A DNA stretch of 16,299 nt, from positions 1-16,299 of the forward strand of contig JALNXV010000031.1 in assembly GCA_023230175.1 (NCBI GenBank), written 5' to 3'. The stretch is from Candidatus Cloacimonadota bacterium (lineage in GTDB: Bacteria; Cloacimonadota; Cloacimonadia; Cloacimonadales; WRIO01). The notes under the pieces are model-generated. The model did no database searches and was not told the origin of the DNA. It saw only the letters and a list, made by a program, of their open reading frames with translations. The position numbers were made by a program, and so were the translations under genes. Shown in pieces: positions 1,824-15,031 of this stretch. Numbering within the stretch: position 1 is the first letter of the stretch; every line of letters begins with the position of its first letter.

Positions 1824-3827
1824 TTATAATAAATTATTTAAGAAATCTTCGTCAGGTAAAAATGGTATAGTTATATGTCCTTCACCTTGGTGTTTTTGAT
1901 TCCATTCTATTGATCTGTCGATAGCATTTTCATTTCTTGCCCAGTTTCTTCTTGAAACACCTCCCATAACATCCCAAGAAAGAGCTGATTTTACTATATC
2001 ATCCATTCTTTTTGAGCCATCAAGCACTATGCCGTTTCCACCATTAATAGCTCTTCCGATTCCAACTCCGCCACCATTTGATAAGACTACCATTGTCATA
2101 CCGCGAGCAACATTGCCGGCAAAGCATTGAGTTGCCATATCAGCCATAACATTGCTGCCATCATATATATTTGAAGTTTCTCTAAAAGGAGAATCAGTAC
2201 CTGATACATCATGATGATCACGTCCTAAAATAACCGGACCTATTTCTCCACGTCTAACCATATCATTGAATTTTAAAGCTATTTTTACTCTACCTTCTTC
2301 ATCAGCGTAAAGAATTCTTGCTTTTGTCCCTACGACTAATTGATTTTTTTCTGCATTGGCAATCCAGTGATAATTATCCCTGTCTTGTGGACAGCGTTTT
2401 GGATCTATACTGTCCATTGCGGCCTGGTCAGTTTTTCTTAAATCTTCGTCTTTTCCGCTTAAACATACCCATCTAAATGGACCATAACCATTGTCAAAAC
2501 AAATAGGTCCCATAATATCTTCAACATAGGAAGGCCAGATAAATCCATTATTTGTATCCTTGCCGTTTTTAGCGATTGAGGTTTCACCTGCATCAAATAT
2601 GGATGCCATAAAACTATTGCCGTAATCCCAGAAATAAGAGCCTTTTTGGGTAAGATTTTTAATTATATGAAAGTGTTTTTTTAATGATTCATCTACTTTA
2701 TTCTTAAAGTCTTGAGGATTTTCTTTGATTAGTTTCCTTCCTTCTTCAAAACTTATTCCTGCAGGAGTATAGCCCCCTTCATAGACTGCATGACAAGATG
2801 TTTGGTCTGAGATAAGTTCAATTTTGATATTGTTTTTGTCAAAATATTCTAATAAATCGACAATATTACCATGATAAGCAATAGAAATTGCTTTTCCACT
2901 TTTACGATATTCTTCAATCCAGTTAGCAATTTCATCTAATTTATTAGAGACTAAGCCAACCCAACCTTGAGAATGTCTTGTTTCGATTCTGCTATAATCG
3001 ACTTCTGCTATAATTCCGATACCACCTGCAATTTCGCAAGCTTTTGCTTGAGCACCAGACATTCCACCGAGACCGGAAGAAACATATACGATTCCGCTTA
3101 AATCTTTATCTGCGGGAATATTAAGATATTTTCTGCCTGCATTTAATAAGGTTATATATGTTCCGTGAACGATTCCTTGGGGTCCTATATACATCCAGCC
3201 CCCGGCAGTCATTTGTCCGTAATTTGCAACTCCAAGTGCTGTAAGTCTTTTGAAATCATCCGGATTATCCCATTTTCCGATTACTAATCCTTGAGTAGAT
3301 ATTACTCTTGGTGCTTCAGGTTTAGAAGGAAATAGTCCGAGAGGATGACCGGATTCGATAACGAGTGTTTGGTCCTCAGTCATAACTTCAAGGTATTTTT
3401 TTATTAATTGGTATTGCATCCAGTTTTGGCATACTTGACCGGTTTCTCCGTAAGTTACTAATTCATAAGGATAAAGGGCAATATCAAAATCGAGATTGTT
3501 ATCTATCATTACTTGAATGGCTTTTCCTTGAGTGATGCCTTTATATTCATTAATTGGTTTTCCATAAATCTTGCCTTCAGGTCTATACCTATAACCATAA
3601 ATTCTACCCATTGTTTGTAATTCTTCTAAAAATTCAGGGGCTAAGGTTTTATGTAAATGTTTAGGGATATATCTTAAAGCATTTTTAAGGGCTAAGATAG
3701 TTTCTTCTTTGTTAAGGAAATAACCTCTATCGGGTGCACGTCTGATATTAGGTAAAAAAGGTTTTTTCTCAGGTAGTTCATCAGGAAGCCTTACTTGCAT
3801 AGCTGATTTAATTAGGTCGTTTTTCAT
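1824..3827 (-). CDS. hutU: Urocanate hydratase (urocanase), long form
   Basis: Urocanase converts urocanate to 4-imidazolone-5-propionate, the second step of histidine breakdown, using tightly bound NAD+ as an electrophile. At 667 aa this is the long form found in eukaryotes and many anaerobes rather than the roughly 555-aa Pseudomonas/Bacillus form. Supporting segments are TAGGWMYIGPQGIVHGT (207-223), the NAD-binding YVSSGLGGMSGAQAKA (248-263), and GPICFDNGYGPFRW (440-453), whose Cys443 aligns by context with the active-site Cys410 of the Pseudomonas enzyme. A C-terminal GNVARGMTMVV/GGGVGIGRA stretch is also typical. The ATG overlaps the stop of the upstream gene (ATGA), with GGAGG 5 nt before it, so translation is coupled to that gene. 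No histidase, imidazolonepropionase or formiminotransferase gene is present in the window. Confidence 0.96.
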   Translation of the reverse strand: MKNDLIKSAMQVRLPDELPEKKPFLPNIRRAPDRGYFLNKEETILALKNALRYIPKHLHKTLAPEFLEELQTMGRIYGYRYRPEGKIYGKPINEYKGITQGKAIQVMIDNNLDFDIALYPYELVTYGETGQVCQNWMQYQLIKKYLEVMTEDQTLVIESGHPLGLFPSKPEAPRVISTQGLVIGKWDNPDDFKRLTALGVANYGQMTAGGWMYIGPQGIVHGTYITLLNAGRKYLNIPADKDLSGIVYVSSGLGGMSGAQAKACEIAGGIGIIAEVDYSRIETRHSQGWVGLVSNKLDEIANWIEEYRKSGKAISIAYHGNIVDLLEYFDKNNIKIELISDQTSCHAVYEGGYTPAGISFEEGRKLIKENPQDFKNKVDESLKKHFHIIKNLTQKGSYFWDYGNSFMASIFDAGETSIAKNGKDTNNGFIWPSYVEDIMGPICFDNGYGPFRWVCLSGKDEDLRKTDQAAMDSIDPKRCPQDRDNYHWIANAEKNQLVVGTKARILYADEEGRVKIALKFNDMVRRGEIGPVILGRDHHDVSGTDSPFRETSNIYDGSNVMADMATQCFAGNVARGMTMVVLSNGGGVGIGRAINGGNGIVLDGSKRMDDIVKSALSWDVMGGVSRRNWARNENAIDRSIEWNQKHQGEGHITIPFLPDEDFLNNLL

Positions 3828-4681
3828 TTTTCCTCCGAGTAATTATTATTTATAAAATCTATATTTCCATAGGGAACAATGTCTTCGATTGATGCACTTC
3901 TTTCTGTTATAAATTTATGTATTTTGCTTTCAATTTGAGCAAAAAGATTTAAGTCAATATGTTTATAAGTCCCTTTATATGCTTTTCTTAAAACATAGAT
4001 ATCATTTTTTATTGGAGATAAGCAGTCAATGTAAGTTTTTTCTATGTATTCAGATAGACATAAAATTAATGCATTTGGATTTAAAGCTTGGATGTCGTTT
4101 TTAAGTTTTTTTATATTTTCTACATCATAGTTTGTAAAGTAATTTCTAATGTAGAATACAATTAACGGTACATAAATCTTTATCTTAGTGAAAGATTTAC
4201 TTATAGCTAATCTATATTGTAGGTCAAGTTCTAGGCAAAGGCTGTAGTAATTATCAGAAAAGGAGTATTTAAGATAGGGTTTTTTGATTGCACTGATAAA
4301 TGAGTCATTATTTAAACTTAACCCTGTATGAAAATATCTTTTTCTTAAGGATAGTCCGCGAGTGGAATCTGTAATATTATATTTTTTAAGGATTTGTAAT
4401 AATATGTCAAAAATATAGTATGGTTTAAATATATCGTGATCAGGTGTAAAACCGGTTTTTGATCTTTCTGAGTAGGTAAATTTTTTATTTATTGATAATT
4501 GTTCAGTGTAGAGTGAGATTTCTTTTATAAAGTTTGGTATAAATTCTTCTGAATATTCATCTATATTATCATAAACAGCATCAACGTTTTGCCAATACAA
4601 GAGTAATTCATTTAAATACATTTGAAGAATGGGGTCTTTTTCATTTTTAAGATTCTCTTTGAGTCTCTCTTTATATAGCAT
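3824..4681 (-). CDS. Unidentified 285-aa protein translationally coupled to urocanase
   Basis: The family is not firmly recognised. The protein is cytosolic in appearance: it has no signal peptide and is rich in Lys, Ile, Tyr and Asn. The N-terminal ~65 residues look helical and charged. The middle contains TGFTPDHDIF (76-85) and RGLSLRKRYFHTG (108-120), and the C-terminal third has a buried strand ALILC (204-208) followed by NDIYVLRKAYKG (226-237). This last pattern reminds me of the C-terminal part of Bpu10I-type restriction enzymes, but I see no E-x-K catalytic pair where such an enzyme would need it (around PLIVFYIRNYF, 172-182). That resemblance is weak and from memory. Its stop overlaps the urocanase ATG by 4 bp, so the two are one transcription unit. 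Start: ATG with AGGAG 6 nt upstream. A role linked to histidine use is possible only by context. Confidence 0.8.
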   Translation of the reverse strand: MLYKERLKENLKNEKDPILQMYLNELLLYWQNVDAVYDNIDEYSEEFIPNFIKEISLYTEQLSINKKFTYSERSKTGFTPDHDIFKPYYIFDILLQILKKYNITDSTRGLSLRKRYFHTGLSLNNDSFISAIKKPYLKYSFSDNYYSLCLELDLQYRLAISKSFTKIKIYVPLIVFYIRNYFTNYDVENIKKLKNDIQALNPNALILCLSEYIEKTYIDCLSPIKNDIYVLRKAYKGTYKHIDLNLFAQIESKIHKFITERSASIEDIVPYGNIDFINNNYSEEK

Positions 4682-9075: not shown

Positions 9076-9591
9076 ATGGTAGAAATTGTTAAAGGGGATA
9101 TAGTTATTCAAGAGATTGAAGCAATTGTAAATGCTGCAAATAATAGTTTGTTGGGTGGAGCCGGTGTAGATGGTGCTATTCACAGTGTAGCCGGTAAGGA
9201 ATTACTTGCCGAATGCAAAACCATAGGTTTTTGTAAAACTGGGCAAGCAGTTTTAACTAAGGCTTATAAACTTAAATCTGATTTTGTAATCCATACTGTT
9301 GGTCCGATTTGGTATGGTGGGGGTAATAACGAAGAACATTTATTGTCATTATGTTATAGAAATGTTTTTAATATAATTAGAGAAAAAAATATCAAAAGTG
9401 TTGCTTTCCCGGCTATAAGTACAGGTGTTTATAAGTTTCCGGTTGATTTAGCGACTGATATAGCTTTACGAGAAACAAGAGAATTTTTAAAATCTAATAT
9501 AAATAATGTAAAAATAGTATTTGTATGTTATGATGAAAATACATATAATGTTTATTTAAATAAGTTTAATCAATTATTCAGGAAAGGATGA
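9076..9591 (+). CDS. Macro-domain protein, O-acetyl-ADP-ribose deacetylase / ADP-ribosyl hydrolase type
   Basis: A stand-alone macro domain of 171 aa. MacroD/YmdB-type members hydrolyse O-acetyl-ADP-ribose and remove mono-ADP-ribose from acidic residues. Motifs are complete: GDI (7-9), NAAN (19-22), the catalytic-loop GVDGAIH (30-36) and ISTGVY (114-119), which binds the diphosphate. The length is normal for the family. The ribosome binding site is weak (GTGAG). Three nucleotides separate its stop from the next ATG, and the AGGAAAGG serving the aminopeptidase lies inside its last codons, so the two genes are one operon. A biological link between ADP-ribose turnover and the peptidase is not established by this pairing alone. 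No ADP-ribosyltransferase or sirtuin gene is visible in the window. Confidence 0.93.
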   Translation: MVEIVKGDIVIQEIEAIVNAANNSLLGGAGVDGAIHSVAGKELLAECKTIGFCKTGQAVLTKAYKLKSDFVIHTVGPIWYGGGNNEEHLLSLCYRNVFNIIREKNIKSVAFPAISTGVYKFPVDLATDIALRETREFLKSNINNVKIVFVCYDENTYNVYLNKFNQLFRKG

Positions 9592-9594
9592 GTT

Positions 9595-11640
9595 ATGAAA
9601 ACTAAACAAACTCTTATTCAAAAAAAGAATGAACAATCTCAAAAAGATTATGAAGAGTTATTTGTAAAAATTAAAAAAATTAATACTGAAACTGCTAATC
9701 AATCAGGAGATAAATGGAAAGTATTTTTTTATGAGCTAAGTTTAATAATGTTAAATGCTGTTAAAGTTGAGAAAGATATTTCAGAAGAATATTTTAAAAT
9801 ACATAGCATTGAGCATCTAAAAGAATTAAATGTAAAACTTAATAAAGAGGTTCTATTTGATAATTATAAGCAAAGCTATTTAAATCCTAAATATTCTGTA
9901 CAAGTTTTTGGTGAAAAATTTGGACAGTTAAATTCTGTAATATCTGCCATTGTGTATTCAGTTAATGCTTTTGCTTGTGAACATATAATTTATAAAATGG
10001 CTTATGTATTTAGCTTTTTTAATGACTATTATAAAACGTGGCAAGAAAATAATGAGAATTATGAAGTGCTTTTAAAAGTATTGAATGATTATCAATTGTC
10101 ACATCTTTATGAAAGTTCAAGTGATAGTTATTATAAAAGATTTTCTTCTGAAAATGATTTTTATACAAGATGGATAAAAGATGTAGATTTAAGTGATTTA
10201 AGATATTTGTTTTACTATGGAAGTTACATAAGTGATAATGATATAAAGATTGCTAAATTTTTAAATAGTCTCACTCAAGAAAAGATAGATAGAGTTATGC
10301 ATCAGACAGCTAAGGCTTATATTTTAGGTTTTAAAGAAGGTGATAAAGATTTTACAAAAAAGAAGACGGTTGCATTATATTTTAGAGTTGGTATGGAACG
10401 CCTTGCAAAGAGTTTAGTAAATGAGATAGAAAGCAAGTATGGGTTGAAGGTTTTAATAAGTGTAATTATTCCGGGTAAGTATAATCAACAGTATAATTAT
10501 GATCATAGATTTGATAGTGCATTATTTTTGGATGATGAATTTAAGAAAAATTTATTAGTTGAAACTGAAAAAGCTATAGAAGATAATAAAGAAATAATTC
10601 AAGAATGTTCCGGTAATATTTATTTTGATCCTTTTGGAGATAAGCCTTTTGCTCCGGAAAATAAAAAAGAGTGTTTAAAACTTAATGATCAACAAATGAA
10701 ATTAAATCAAGAAATTAGAGCAAATATGTCAATGATGATTAATAAGTATTATAAACGTAGTGAAATTTCTTTTTGTATTATAGGATTCCCTACTCCGGAA
10801 ATTGGTGAAAAATTTGAAGAAATATTTGATAAAACTATTGATATTAATATGCTTGATCATGAACATTGGCTTAAGATACAGCAATATTTAATTGATGCTT
10901 TAGATCAAGCAGATAGAGTTTTAGTGAAAGGTACAAATGGCAATAGAACTAATTTGACAGTCAAGCTTCCTACTTTAGATAATCCTGAAAAACAAACTAA
11001 TTTTAATAATTGCGGTGCTACTGTAAATATTCCTGTAGGTGAAGTTTTCAATACTCCTCAATTAACCGGTACTAATGGTAATTTACATATATCTGAAACT
11101 TTTTTGAATAGCCTGTATTATAAAGATTTAGATATTAAATTTGAAGATGGTAGAATTGCTGAATATAATTGTAAAAATTATGATAACGATGAAGATAATA
11201 AAAAGTATATTGAAGAAAATTTAATCTTCCCTCATAAATCATTACCGCTTGGTGAGTTTGCTATTGGTACAAATACTCTGGCTTATGCTGTTGCAAAAAA
11301 ATATAAGATTTTGGATGTTTTGCCTATCCTGATTATAGAAAAAATGGGACCACATTTTGCGATTGGTGATACTTGTTATAGTTGGGAAGAAGATACTCCG
11401 GTATTTAATCCTGATGGTAAAGAAATAATTTCAAGAGATAATGAACATACTTTAATTCGTAAAGAGGATCCTTCTAAAGCATATACAAATTGTCATGTGG
11501 ATATTACTTTACCTTATGAAGAAATTGGTGTTATTCAAGCTGTAAAACCAAACGGTGACACAATTGATATTATTAAAAATGGTCGATTCGTTCTTAAAGG
11601 TACTGAAGAATTAAATACTTATTTAGATGATATTAAATAA
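9595..11640 (+). CDS. M29-family metallo-aminopeptidase with long N-terminal extension
   Basis: It removes N-terminal residues from peptides with a two-metal centre. The C-terminal ~300 of 681 aa carry the M29 (AmpS/AmpT) ligand set in order: Glu483 in VGEVFNTP, Glu554 in LGEFAIGTN, His587 in GPHFAIG with a nearby Tyr595, and His634/Asp636 in CHVDITL. NLTVKLP (453-459) precedes these, as in the family. Classical M29 enzymes are about 410 aa. Here the first ~270 residues are an extra region, mostly helical, rich in Lys, Tyr, Phe and Asn, without a signal peptide or a domain I recognise. Similar long versions occur in clostridia-like bacteria as I recall. It is cytoplasmic. It is translated from an AGGAAAGG inside the macro-domain gene and is followed by a strong terminator. 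Confidence 0.93.
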   Translation: MKTKQTLIQKKNEQSQKDYEELFVKIKKINTETANQSGDKWKVFFYELSLIMLNAVKVEKDISEEYFKIHSIEHLKELNVKLNKEVLFDNYKQSYLNPKYSVQVFGEKFGQLNSVISAIVYSVNAFACEHIIYKMAYVFSFFNDYYKTWQENNENYEVLLKVLNDYQLSHLYESSSDSYYKRFSSENDFYTRWIKDVDLSDLRYLFYYGSYISDNDIKIAKFLNSLTQEKIDRVMHQTAKAYILGFKEGDKDFTKKKTVALYFRVGMERLAKSLVNEIESKYGLKVLISVIIPGKYNQQYNYDHRFDSALFLDDEFKKNLLVETEKAIEDNKEIIQECSGNIYFDPFGDKPFAPENKKECLKLNDQQMKLNQEIRANMSMMINKYYKRSEISFCIIGFPTPEIGEKFEEIFDKTIDINMLDHEHWLKIQQYLIDALDQADRVLVKGTNGNRTNLTVKLPTLDNPEKQTNFNNCGATVNIPVGEVFNTPQLTGTNGNLHISETFLNSLYYKDLDIKFEDGRIAEYNCKNYDNDEDNKKYIEENLIFPHKSLPLGEFAIGTNTLAYAVAKKYKILDVLPILIIEKMGPHFAIGDTCYSWEEDTPVFNPDGKEIISRDNEHTLIRKEDPSKAYTNCHVDITLPYEEIGVIQAVKPNGDTIDIIKNGRFVLKGTEELNTYLDDIK

Positions 11641-12099: not shown

Positions 12100-13269
12100 C
12101 TATTCAATATCTTTTATATAATAAGTCTTTAATGGGGGGAATCCGTTAAATTCTATTGAACTATATGAAGTTGTGTATGCACCGGTTGAAAACCAATAAA
12201 GTCGGTCCCCAATTGATAAACTTAAAGGTAAATCATATTTAAAATCTTCATACATAATATCTTGAGAATCACAAGTTGGACCGGCTATAATGCATTCTTC
12301 TGTTTCACCTTTGCGTTCAGTAAAAATAGGAAACTTAATTGATTCTTCGAGAGTTTCAATTAATCCATTAAATTTACCTATGTCAGTAAAGATCCATCTG
12401 TTTAGAGCTGTACGTGATTTTCTTGAAATTAAAACAACTTCGCTAACTATTACACCCGAATCTCCTAGTAGGGATCGACCGGGTTCTAAAATTATTTCCG
12501 GATGGTCAGTTCCAAAATCTTCGATTAAGTATCTTGTGATTTCTTCAGCATAAACAGAGATCTCGTTAGTTCTTGAAGTGTAATTAGCCGGAAATCCTCC
12601 ACCCATATTAATCATTTTAAGATTGATATTTTCTTCTTCTTTGAGCCAACTAAATAAATAACGTGCTTTTGATATTGCTGCGTCCCATGTAGCAATATCT
12701 CTTTGTTGAGAACCTACATGAAATGAAATACCATAAGGCTCTAAGCCTAATTTTTTGGCTAAGATTATTAAATCTCCTGCCATATCTGCTTGACAACCAA
12801 ATTTTCTTGACAAAGGCCAATCAGCTGTTTCAACACCTTCTGTTAATATCCTTACAAAGACCTTTGAGCCGGGAGCAGCCTTTGCGATGTTTCTTAAATC
12901 TGCTTCGCTATCGGTTACAAAAAGTCTAACTCCTGCTTCGTAATGTTCTCTGACATCAGATGCTTTTTTTATTGTGTTACCGTAACTAATCCTATGAGGT
13001 TCAACACCTAAACTAAGGAGCTTGCGAAGTTCATAGACAGAGGCAACATCAAAATTTGAACCTAAATCTCTTAAAAGTGTAAGTACTTCTGTAGCCGGAT
13101 TAGCTTTTACAGCATAGTGGATTTTTGCATAAGGAAAGTTAGCGGTTAGTTCTTCGTATTTTTTCTTTACAATGTCAAGGTTGATGATTAAAAAAGGTGT
13201 TTCTTTGTCTTCAGCAAAGTCTTTAATTTTCTTCCAGTCTTCATTTGATATGTAAGTATCTCTATTCAT
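12100..13269 (-). CDS. PLP-dependent ornithine/lysine-type decarboxylase (fold III)
   Basis: It decarboxylates a basic amino acid, most likely ornithine to putrescine, the entry to polyamine synthesis. The 389-aa length and motifs match the alanine-racemase-fold ornithine decarboxylases: YAVKAN with the PLP-binding Lys55, SFHVGSQ with His184 stacking on PLP, GGGFP (223-227) and EPGR (262-265) holding the phosphate, and GPTCDSQD with Cys333 and Asp334 contributed across the dimer interface. The Cys-Asp pair argues for ornithine decarboxylase over diaminopimelate decarboxylase; lysine as an alternative substrate cannot be excluded. Start: ATG with GGAGGA 5 nt upstream. The binding site begins just after the stop of a 32-codon leader ORF, so expression is probably tied to translation of that leader. 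It ends near the inverted repeat at 11725-12058. Confidence 0.93.
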   Translation of the reverse strand: MNRDTYISNEDWKKIKDFAEDKETPFLIINLDIVKKKYEELTANFPYAKIHYAVKANPATEVLTLLRDLGSNFDVASVYELRKLLSLGVEPHRISYGNTIKKASDVREHYEAGVRLFVTDSEADLRNIAKAAPGSKVFVRILTEGVETADWPLSRKFGCQADMAGDLIILAKKLGLEPYGISFHVGSQQRDIATWDAAISKARYLFSWLKEEENINLKMINMGGGFPANYTSRTNEISVYAEEITRYLIEDFGTDHPEIILEPGRSLLGDSGVIVSEVVLISRKSRTALNRWIFTDIGKFNGLIETLEESIKFPIFTERKGETEECIIAGPTCDSQDIMYEDFKYDLPLSLSIGDRLYWFSTGAYTTSYSSIEFNGFPPLKTYYIKDIE

Positions 13270-13274
13270 TTAGT

Positions 13275-13310
13275 TCCTCCGATTAATATTTTTTTATAAA
13301 AAACAGAGGA
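13275..13310 (-). promoter_or_regulatory. Possible hairpin hiding the decarboxylase ribosome binding site
   Basis: In the minus-strand RNA, UCCUCUG (13310-13304), inside the second Pro-Pro-Leu codons of the leader, can pair with CGGAGGA (13281-13275), the decarboxylase Shine-Dalgarno. This gives seven pairs including one G-U, around a 22-nt A/U-rich loop. The same CCUCCU (13312-13307) can instead pair with the leader's own AGGAGG (13393-13388), six perfect pairs. The two pairings exclude each other. This is seen only as complementarity; no fold energy was computed. Confidence 0.45.
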
Positions 13311-13381
13311 GGGACTTGATAACAAAAAGACTTCAAATCCGGTGGTTGATAGATGACATTACGAAAAAGTCTTGTGTTCAT
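13283..13381 (-). CDS. 32-aa leader peptide upstream of the decarboxylase, with two Pro-Pro motifs
   Basis: A short ORF with an ideal ribosome binding site: AGGAGG (13393-13388) 6 nt before ATG. The peptide begins MNTRLFRNVIY, has Pro-Pro-Asp at residues 13-15 and Pro-Pro-Leu at 24-26, and ends FFIKKY. Its TAA lies 13 nt before the decarboxylase ATG, and that gap contains the decarboxylase binding site. Pro-Pro-Asp is a known strong pausing motif that needs EF-P in bacteria, and nascent-peptide leaders before ornithine decarboxylase are known (SpeFL in enterobacteria senses ornithine). I see no clear sequence likeness to SpeFL beyond short aromatic and basic runs. It is more likely a regulatory leader than an independent small protein. 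The rest of the gap to 13545 shows no promoter that I can assign with confidence. Confidence 0.75.
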   Translation of the reverse strand: MNTRLFRNVIYQPPDLKSFCYQVPPLFFIKKY

Positions 13382-13545
13382 TTGTATCCTCCTTTTATTC
13401 ATATATTAAATTGTTAAATAAAATATAGTCATTTTTATGCAAGCTTTTTTTTGAAAAATTAAAATAATTTTATAATCATATAATAGACAAACAAATACAA
13501 CTAAGCTTAAATTTTAAAAATTTATTGTTTAACGAAAAAAATATT

Positions 13546-13845
13546 TTAAAAATTATTGTTTTTATACAATGAATTGATTAGTATTTGAATCCCGATTAGT
13601 ATTAGTATTGCCGGCCAAAAAATATTAAAATAGAAGATTAAAAATAATCCTGCAAGCCAAATAAAACCACTCAAATTAGAACGTTTATTACTACTAAAGA
13701 AAAAATTCTTTAGATAAATTAATGAGATAACTAAAAGAATCCAAGGGAAAAGGGAAAAAGGCTTAATTAAAAAAATCAATCCTAACCCAATTAGGATAAT
13801 ACCTAAAGAGAAATCGCTTCTATTATGTTTAAGATTGTTGCCCAT
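13546..13845 (-). CDS. Small membrane protein, 99 aa, function unknown
   Basis: After a short polar start (MGNNLKHNRSD) the protein is almost wholly hydrophobic, with about four membrane segments: FSLGIILIGLGLIFLI (~12-27), LFPWILLVISLIYL (~32-45), a central pair around FIWLAGLFLIFYF (~61-73) and PAILILIGIQILI (~78-90). Gly-rich paired helices of this kind occur in small LiaF/DUF5668-like bacterial membrane proteins, but I cannot place it firmly. The binding site before ATG is weak (GGTG). The start lies inside a 57-aa ORF ending at 13829, so it is probably translated by coupling to it. Confidence 0.7.
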   Translation of the reverse strand: MGNNLKHNRSDFSLGIILIGLGLIFLIKPFSLFPWILLVISLIYLKNFFFSSNKRSNLSGFIWLAGLFLIFYFNIFWPAILILIGIQILINSLYKNNNF

Positions 13846-14164: not shown

Positions 14165-15031
14165 TTAATTATCAATAATAGCATACAATATAGTATCTCC
14201 CACAAAATGATATTGTCTGACATAAAAATGATAATCCGGGACTAAGGAGCTAAGATATTGAAAAATTTCTACCATATCTTCACATTTATGATAGATGCTT
14301 ATTGCCAGTTTTGGTTTATCTCTTAAAATGGTTTTTTCAGCTCCTTTTAATGCTGATAGCTCAGAGCCCTCCACATCCATTTTAATAAAGCTTACTTTAT
14401 CTAAATTCAAATTATCGATTGCTTTTAGTTTTATTGATTGTGAGTCTATGTTTGAATCGTTACTAACTACTTGTTTATTTTTATTTGATAATAGCATCTC
14501 GCAATCTTTATCATAAACTCCTGCTTTGAGTATTTTAATTTTTTGATTATTTTGAAATCTTTTTAAGAGCCTGTTATAATGTTTTTCATTCGGCTCAAAG
14601 GCTATTATTTCTTTGTATTTAGGGCATTTTTTAATAAATAAATCAATAGTTACACCACTTGCACCACAATCAATATATACTTCATCTTCGGTAAATTTAA
14701 GTTGTTTAAGAAAGTATTGATGTTCTTTTATTATATGAAAAGGATAGTCCTTTATATCTCTACTTTGTCGAAATTTTATCATTCCTTTATATATTTTTTT
14801 GCTTTTTTCATCAGAAAGTTTATTAGTAAGGGTTTCAATTAACTCTTTATTATTGGCAAAAAAATTATTTTTATCAAATAAAGGCCAGCCATATTTTGTA
14901 TGATAATAATCAGTTTTATTGTAATGTAGATAAAAATTACACAATTTTTTGAAAAAACGAAAATTAATAAAGATTGGGCCATTCTTAATTATTTTATGGA
15001 AAATTACGAAATTAGAGTCTTTTTTAAGCAT
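14165..15031 (-). CDS. FkbM-family SAM-dependent methyltransferase
   Basis: A class I methyltransferase of 288 aa, of the FkbM family that O-methylates sugars or small molecules and is often found with glycan genes. An N-terminal ~110 residues specific to this protein are followed by motif I VYIDCGASGVTIDLF (118-132) binding SAM, IAFEPNEKHY (143-152) with the acidic residue for the SAM ribose, VSFIKMDVEGSELSALKGA (213-231), the family hallmark, and PKLAISIYHK (240-249). The length is typical. Start: ATG with GGAGG 7 nt upstream. There is no glycosyltransferase or surface-polysaccharide gene beside it in this window, so the acceptor is unknown. Its neighbours on both sides are separated by long A/T-rich gaps, which fits a mobile or recently acquired gene. 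Confidence 0.9.
   Translation of the reverse strand: MLKKDSNFVIFHKIIKNGPIFINFRFFKKLCNFYLHYNKTDYYHTKYGWPLFDKNNFFANNKELIETLTNKLSDEKSKKIYKGMIKFRQSRDIKDYPFHIIKEHQYFLKQLKFTEDEVYIDCGASGVTIDLFIKKCPKYKEIIAFEPNEKHYNRLLKRFQNNQKIKILKAGVYDKDCEMLLSNKNKQVVSNDSNIDSQSIKLKAIDNLNLDKVSFIKMDVEGSELSALKGAEKTILRDKPKLAISIYHKCEDMVEIFQYLSSLVPDYHFYVRQYHFVGDTILYAIIDN

Follow-up and report, generated by a model that had tools for sequence, protein, structure and literature searches.

The window, by which we mean the whole 16,299-nt stretch of DNA considered here, carries a gene for a fold-III PLP-dependent decarboxylase preceded on the same strand by a short open reading frame (ORF) with its own Shine-Dalgarno sequence (SD). 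The features of this leader region and of the gene that it is proposed to control are collected in Table 1.

Table 1. Features of the leader region and the downstream gene (window coordinates)
Feature	Position	Strand	Remarks
Fold-III PLP ornithine/lysine-type decarboxylase gene	12100..13269	-	389 aa; the controlled gene in the proposal
SD region of the decarboxylase gene, CGGAGGA	13275..13281	-	predicted 3' arm of the hairpin
Leader ORF	13283..13381	-	32 codons and TAA (13283-13285), ATG at 13381, read from the sequence; MNTRLFRNVIYQPPDLKSFCYQVPPLFFIKKY; basis: sequence, simulations, homologous ORF at L002:877-963
Predicted anti-SD, codons 24-26 (CCTCCTCTG, Pro-Pro-Leu)	13304..13312	-	5' arm of the hairpin UCCUCUG at 13304-13310
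Proposed pause site, codons 12-15, Gln-Pro-Pro-Asp	13337..13348	-	Gln-Pro-Pro-Asn in L002
SD of the leader, AGGAGG	13388..13393	-	6 nt ahead of the leader ATG; basis: sequence, opening cost

The leader ORF and the decarboxylase gene

The closest solved structures of the encoded enzyme are lysine/ornithine decarboxylases (5gjm, E 3.8e-55), followed by ornithine decarboxylases, with diaminopimelate decarboxylases ranking later (best E 8.4e-31); the NCBIfam lysA model scores 185.7, under its cut-off of 297.9, and several of the 120 database proteins, among the matches listed, carry the source name ornithine decarboxylase. These relatives put the enzyme in the ornithine/lysine type, as a sequence-only reading of the region had proposed, without distinguishing the two substrates. 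Among the best 80 of 567 relatives, the nearest on named genome contigs belong to two Cloacimonadota (L001 and L002, each 82% identical to the window protein and 78.5% to one another), followed by a Spirochaetales contig (75%) and then mostly by Marinobacter and the Pseudomonas group (about 68-73%). The gene is found in 38 of 124 Cloacimonadota genomes (39 matches) and in 84 of 392 Spirochaetota genomes at E 1e-120; no relative was found in viral contigs.

The stop codon of the leader lies 13 nt before the decarboxylase ATG (13267-13269), and the two starts are 112 nt apart. A longer in-frame alternative, starting at the ATG at 13402, would give 39 aa and place the SD within the ORF. Only three ATGs in the whole window, both strands included, are preceded by GGAGG at a distance of 4-10 nt, namely, that of the leader and the starts of two real genes, the decarboxylase (13269) and the gene at 14165-15031 (15031). 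The SD of the leader has the lowest opening cost (1.7 kcal/mol) among the 11 starts scored in the window, or 2.0-2.9 kcal/mol in a longer context. In 20,000 regions simulated with a first-order Markov model of the 576 nt at 13270-13845, an SD-led ORF of 15-60 codons appeared in 57 and such a short ORF containing Pro-Pro in none. These chance figures come from simple models (first-order Markov, dinucleotide shuffles) and the folds below from energy models; neither implies function. A look for promoters gave no candidate site on the minus strand.

The leader contains Pro-Pro at codons 13-14 (followed by Asp) and 24-25 (followed by Leu). Thus the sequence bears out what had been read from it earlier as regards the 32 codons, the AGGAGG, the 13-nt distance, Pro-Pro-Asp and Pro-Pro-Leu. 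The span of 13283..13393 given then is correct at the TAA end; its other end falls at 13393, where the SD begins, while the ORF itself starts at the ATG at 13381.

Elsewhere in the window, a macrodomain protein (9076-9591, plus strand) is encoded 3 nt before a 681-aa protein (9595-11640, plus strand), which has no NCBIfam match and whose C-terminal half, we assume, resembles M29 aminopeptidases. On the minus strand, a urocanate hydratase (1824-3827) scores above the family cut-off and has about 96 additional N-terminal residues; its gene overlaps by 4 nt that of a 285-aa protein (3824-4681, minus strand) without an NCBIfam match.

Conservation of the leader among decarboxylase homologs

The contig L002, from another Cloacimonadota species, has an SD-led ORF in the equivalent place (L002:877-963): MSNRLFQGAKYQPPNNVSMLIINLLGFL. 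Its segment MSNRLFQGAKYQPPN corresponds to MNTRLFRNVIYQPPD in the window. Codons 1-15 align without gaps; M, R, L, F, Y, Q, P and P are shared, 8 residues in all, with 7 of 12 identical over codons 4-15, and the best-kept part of the peptide, RLF....YQPP[DN], is away from the hairpin described below. The nucleotide identity over these 15 codons decreases from 13 at the first position to 9 at the second and 6 at the third, and the Tyr codon and both Pro codons carry synonymous changes. Between the decarboxylase genes of the window and L002, the identity is 46% at fourfold sites (85 sites) and 50% at the third positions of conserved residues (316), so that unselected sites have largely diverged. 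Since L002 retains the leader segment at this level of divergence, we do not believe that the leader ORF is there by chance, and consider with confidence that it is real. The leader score in the L002 upstream region, 40, was equalled in 0 of 2000 dinucleotide shuffles. Leader-peptide translational attenuators are characterised by a short SD-led ORF immediately ahead of the gene and by selection at the peptide level; both are apparent here, in these two sequences only.

Conservation of the ORF and of its Pro-Pro codons in relatives was the check named in the sequence-only reading. It is seen in L002, where the Tyr codon and both Pro codons differ only synonymously; however, the leader segment is present in just 1 of the 137 distinct homolog upstream regions, each 300 nt long (80 for the best 80 of the 567 relatives, 28 from the Cloacimonadota genomes and 29 from the Spirochaetota genomes, the duplicates L081, L082 and L131 being dropped), the runner-up scoring 25 against 40, and L001, which is as close as L002, has neither the leader nor CCTCC upstream. 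Likewise, the first Pro-Pro, followed by Asp or Asn, is common to the window and L002 in frame, whereas the second is out of frame in L002 and is kept there as the DNA of the predicted anti-SD, a role absent from the earlier reading. The second Pro-Pro is therefore not supported as a conserved stall site.

After codon 15 the leader peptide is hardly conserved, and the C-terminus in L002 is different. Another frame of the leader end in L002:877-990 reads HKPPRVFIKNI followed by a stop, resembling YQVPPLFFIKKY in the window. The reading frame at CCTCC differs because L002 has one base fewer before it (23 vs 24 nt). That the other frame still reads Pro-Pro may reflect a recent indel or a sequencing error in L002, or else conservation at the RNA level only.

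The loci read were 30 of the 84 matches in Spirochaetota, none with a similar leader, and 30 of the 39 matches in Cloacimonadota. SD-led short ORFs precede some other homologs, none resembling the leader and one containing Pro-Pro (L107, -234 to -159). Against 5.8 billion proteins only one ORF matched the leader; it has 40 aa and is evidently that of L002 itself, its contig of 4257 bases being as long as the L002 contig. Short ORFs are frequently left uncalled, which limits any search of protein databases. When the leader was searched as a protein in the 124 Cloacimonadota genomes, 31 of them had a weak match (listed E 0.05-1.4); this search is uninformative either way, because it missed the true L002 case (G002, 0 candidates).

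Two other conserved elements were seen upstream of the decarboxylase in other groups. In Pseudomonas/Stutzerimonas (L029:1780-2000 and 14 further loci; 19 loci aligned) a near-invariant element GCCTTGGGAAGTAGGCGAACCAAAGTGGGGAAACTGAT..GGCGTTC is mostly preceded by CCATCCGGCTCAAGTACTGACGACGAGA; it has no Rfam match in L029, L040 or L079, 1 of its 20 predicted pairs is changed on both sides, and it is possibly an undescribed regulatory RNA. In 19 aligned loci of the Marinobacter group (L004 to L062) the element TTATGGGTAGATATGCTCATATC ... GCCCGATGATCGCG lies within about 230 nt upstream of the gene; its conservation is at the DNA level and does not follow a single reading frame, and it has no Rfam match in L006 or L058.

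A predicted hairpin over the decarboxylase SD

L002 retains the CCTCCT of the second Pro-Pro region at the DNA level, although in a different frame. Between CCTCCTC and CGGAGGA, both included, the block is identical between the window and L002 in 34 of 41 columns, or in 27 of 34 with the SD excluded (binomial p 7e-5 at an expected identity of 46% and 0.003 at 55%). The two ends of the block are predicted to form a local hairpin, UCCUCUG/CGGAGGA at -11.0 kcal/mol in the window (1 of 500 shuffles as low) and CCUCC/GGAGG at -10.5 kcal/mol in L002 (23 of 500). All seven SD bases of the window pair with the anti-SD tract at a probability of 0.86-1.0 in three contexts, and six of seven do so in L002 at 0.89-1.0 when the RNA is folded from the leader ATG on. 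With the 5' end of L002 included, the pairing per base drops to 0.07-0.86, because the SD of the leader competes: the best fold joins CCUCC to that SD (0.66 vs 0.2), and the opening cost of the decarboxylase SD in the free RNA falls to 3.7-4.9 kcal/mol. The anti-SD may therefore serve both SDs.

When folding starts at the leader ATG, opening the decarboxylase SD takes 7.8 kcal/mol in the window and 9.0 kcal/mol in L002. The cost is 4.8 kcal/mol in the leaderless L001; in the 135 other homologs, with the SD and start chosen by rule, the median is 4.4 kcal/mol and 39 reach at least 6.5, and in the 48 of these under 42% GC the median is 3.5, with 5 at 6.5 or more and the highest at 7.8. The stability of the whole leader, when folded, is ordinary (z -0.81 and -1.06). 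The covariance models of Rfam 15 gave no match at the gathering score in the window or L002 (two weak matches were below the cut-off), and no intrinsic terminator-like site was found at 13200-13700. We consider translational coupling through the anti-SD hairpin to be probable.

The position of a translating ribosome was modelled by stepping it codon by codon with a footprint assumed to reach 14 nt to either side of the first P-site base. With the ribosome at codons 13-16, the decarboxylase SD costs 3.6-6.4 (window) or 5.5-8.3 (L002) kcal/mol to open, and from codon 22 onward 0.5-3.8 or 2.1-2.9, respectively. The difference is not uniform in the window: at codon 14 the cost (3.6-3.8) is already below that of the free RNA (6.1-6.5), at codons 11-12 it is lower still (2.6-3.2), and in the shortest downstream context (20 nt) codons 23 and 25 (3.6 and 3.8) are no better than codon 14. 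The SD of the window is most frequently open with ribosomes at codons 24-29 (0.17-0.27), whereas in L002 its openness stays at 0.03 or below. The model favours the notion that passing Pro-Pro eases the start of the enzyme and that a pause there would keep this start mostly shut.

A proposed Pro-Pro-gated attenuator and its alternatives

As described for E. coli ribosome profiling, PPD and PPN are seen only among pausing motifs (PMC4140641), so that the replacement of Asp by Asn between the two relatives preserves the pausing class. EF-P domains are present in all three Cloacimonadota genomes searched (G001-G003, 4 matches), to which the genome of the window does not belong; the tip KPGKG is found at 3 of the 4 loci and was not seen in the fourth, a weaker second match in G001.

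The best explanation, to which we give an even chance, is a translational attenuator similar to orf34-speF in which a Pro-Pro pause serves as the gate. The leader, having a fairly open SD, would be translated first, while the decarboxylase SD would be shut in the hairpin, whose partner arm CCUCCUC lies within leader codons 24-26. A ribosome past about codon 21 would melt the hairpin and enable the decarboxylase start, either through a new initiation event or through reinitiation 13 nt past the leader stop. Gln-Pro-Pro-Asp/Asn at codons 12-15 would be the pause gate ahead of the hairpin; a ribosome held there leaves the anti-SD arm uncovered, and the enzyme would therefore stay off. The ORF, its SD, RLF....YQPP[DN] in the two relatives and the conserved anti-SD can be regarded as established at the sequence level, and the hairpin is predicted. 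From these we infer that the leader is translated and pauses at Pro-Pro, that the pause would depend on EF-P and on polyamine or ornithine, and that it would act as an off state, i.e., a feedback brake. The sequences that speak for the attenuator are only two, the window and L002. That Pro-Pro is a regulated gate at all seems to us about evenly balanced; that the leader senses polyamine, ornithine or EF-P, as the sequence-only reading had it, is doubtful.

The conserved 3' block could be accounted for by the hairpin and the coupling geometry alone, and the leader is patchy among relatives; both would suit plain translational coupling, in which the leader merely opens the decarboxylase SD and senses nothing, Pro-Pro being incidental. 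We regard this as the less probable but credible alternative, considering that the best-kept peptide part is away from the hairpin and has synonymous changes in its Tyr and Pro codons. A switch of the opposite sign, in which ornithine or polyamine stalls the ribosome near the leader end (Val-Pro-Pro-Leu or the stop) and thus opens the SD and turns the enzyme on, as with SpeFL, agrees with the openness of the window SD at codons 24-29, and, as described, SpeFL arrests at its own end and the C-terminus is the most conserved part of MdtU; in L002, however, the leader frame does not include the second Pro-Pro, the C-terminus is different and the SD hardly opens, and we find this switch rather unlikely.

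In a further alternative, Rho would load on the pyrimidine-rich tract once an early end of leader translation uncovers it; for Salmonella, a CU-rich tract of 12 nt facing the speF RBS has been proposed as both an anti-SD and a Rho site (PMC6386406). The tract is nevertheless short here (UCCCUCCUCU; CCUCCUC in L002), the leader is AT-rich, and the search at 13200-13700 offers no intrinsic terminator-like site either, so that Rho-dependent attenuation appears highly improbable. Finally, a chance ORF or an assembly artefact might be suspected, as there is one relative only and the sole match of the protein search is evidently the ORF of that same relative; but the same design on a contig of another species, together with the simulations and shuffles, leaves this almost no room.

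The gene downstream is a fold-III decarboxylase and not speF, which sets the leader apart from the SpeFL/orf34 family; SpeF is a fold-I enzyme non-homologous to fold-III decarboxylases, and we know of no motif common to SpeFL and the window leader. The designs are nonetheless alike as described for Salmonella and E. coli (PMC6386406, PMC8429421): a leader ORF of similar length precedes an ornithine decarboxylase gene, and the pause codons are 12-13. In Salmonella, orf34 has 34 codons with two Arg codons at 12-13 and a CU-rich tract opposite the speF RBS, which is an anti-SD ahead of the leader stop, and its translation interferes with Rho and helps to unfold that RBS (PMC6386406). The differences are Arg-Arg and ornithine sensing there against Pro-Pro here, 484 nt from the leader start to the speF start against 112 nt, and the direction, since the Arg-Arg pause keeps speF on and the opposite is proposed here.

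The 18-aa leader mgtP before Salmonella mgtCBR has three consecutive Pro codons, which were shown to make stalling, and hence downstream expression, dependent on EF-P (PMC5299641). Our leader likewise has consecutive Pro codons of a pausing class (PPD, PPN), with EF-P present in G001-G003; mgtP, in contrast, is the transcription attenuator of a Mg2+ operon, and its stalling turns genes on. Polyproline pausing is also described as able to uncouple transcription from translation (PMC5021804). MdtU, a 34-codon upstream ORF of the polyamine gene mdtJI in E. coli, is required for the spermidine response, and its conserved end overlaps a stretch of RNA whose pairing with the mdtJI RBS is predicted (PMC7815308); it differs in that the gene encodes an exporter, the stop is 106 nt before mdtJ and the C-terminus is the conserved part. 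The odc1 (uORF-25-1) motif of alphaproteobacteria, compared by its description (PMC8632094), also combines a short peptide ORF with an RBS-sequestering RNA before an ornithine decarboxylase, but its peptide has 11 aa and begins 2 nt ahead of the main start, and the motif has UUG starts and a pseudoknot. In eukaryotes, the upstream ORF of AZIN1 contains a Pro-Pro stall (PPW) in a polyamine-control gene; it involves scanning and ribosome queuing and controls antizyme inhibitor (PMC11550727).

In the open-access literature, we found neither a description of a Pro-Pro-gated leader of a fold-III decarboxylase nor a paper on a leader peptide in Cloacimonadota. A bacterial counterpart of the animal AZIN1 upstream ORF, in which the Pro-Pro-Asp/Asn pause would read polyamine- or ornithine-dependent EF-P performance and shut the decarboxylase off with its SD left in the hairpin, would be a feedback loop that arose in Cloacimonadota independently of SpeFL and acts on a non-homologous enzyme; we consider this version unlikely. 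If the proposal is true, a translated leader carrying an anti-SD close to its end would have come to control ornithine decarboxylase more than once, on unrelated enzymes and here in a Pro-Pro-gated form, and a bacterial connection of EF-P with polyamine synthesis would become directly testable, in parallel to eIF5A and antizyme inhibitor. It would also be a case of a conserved short regulatory ORF of an uncultured phylum discovered by sequence alone.
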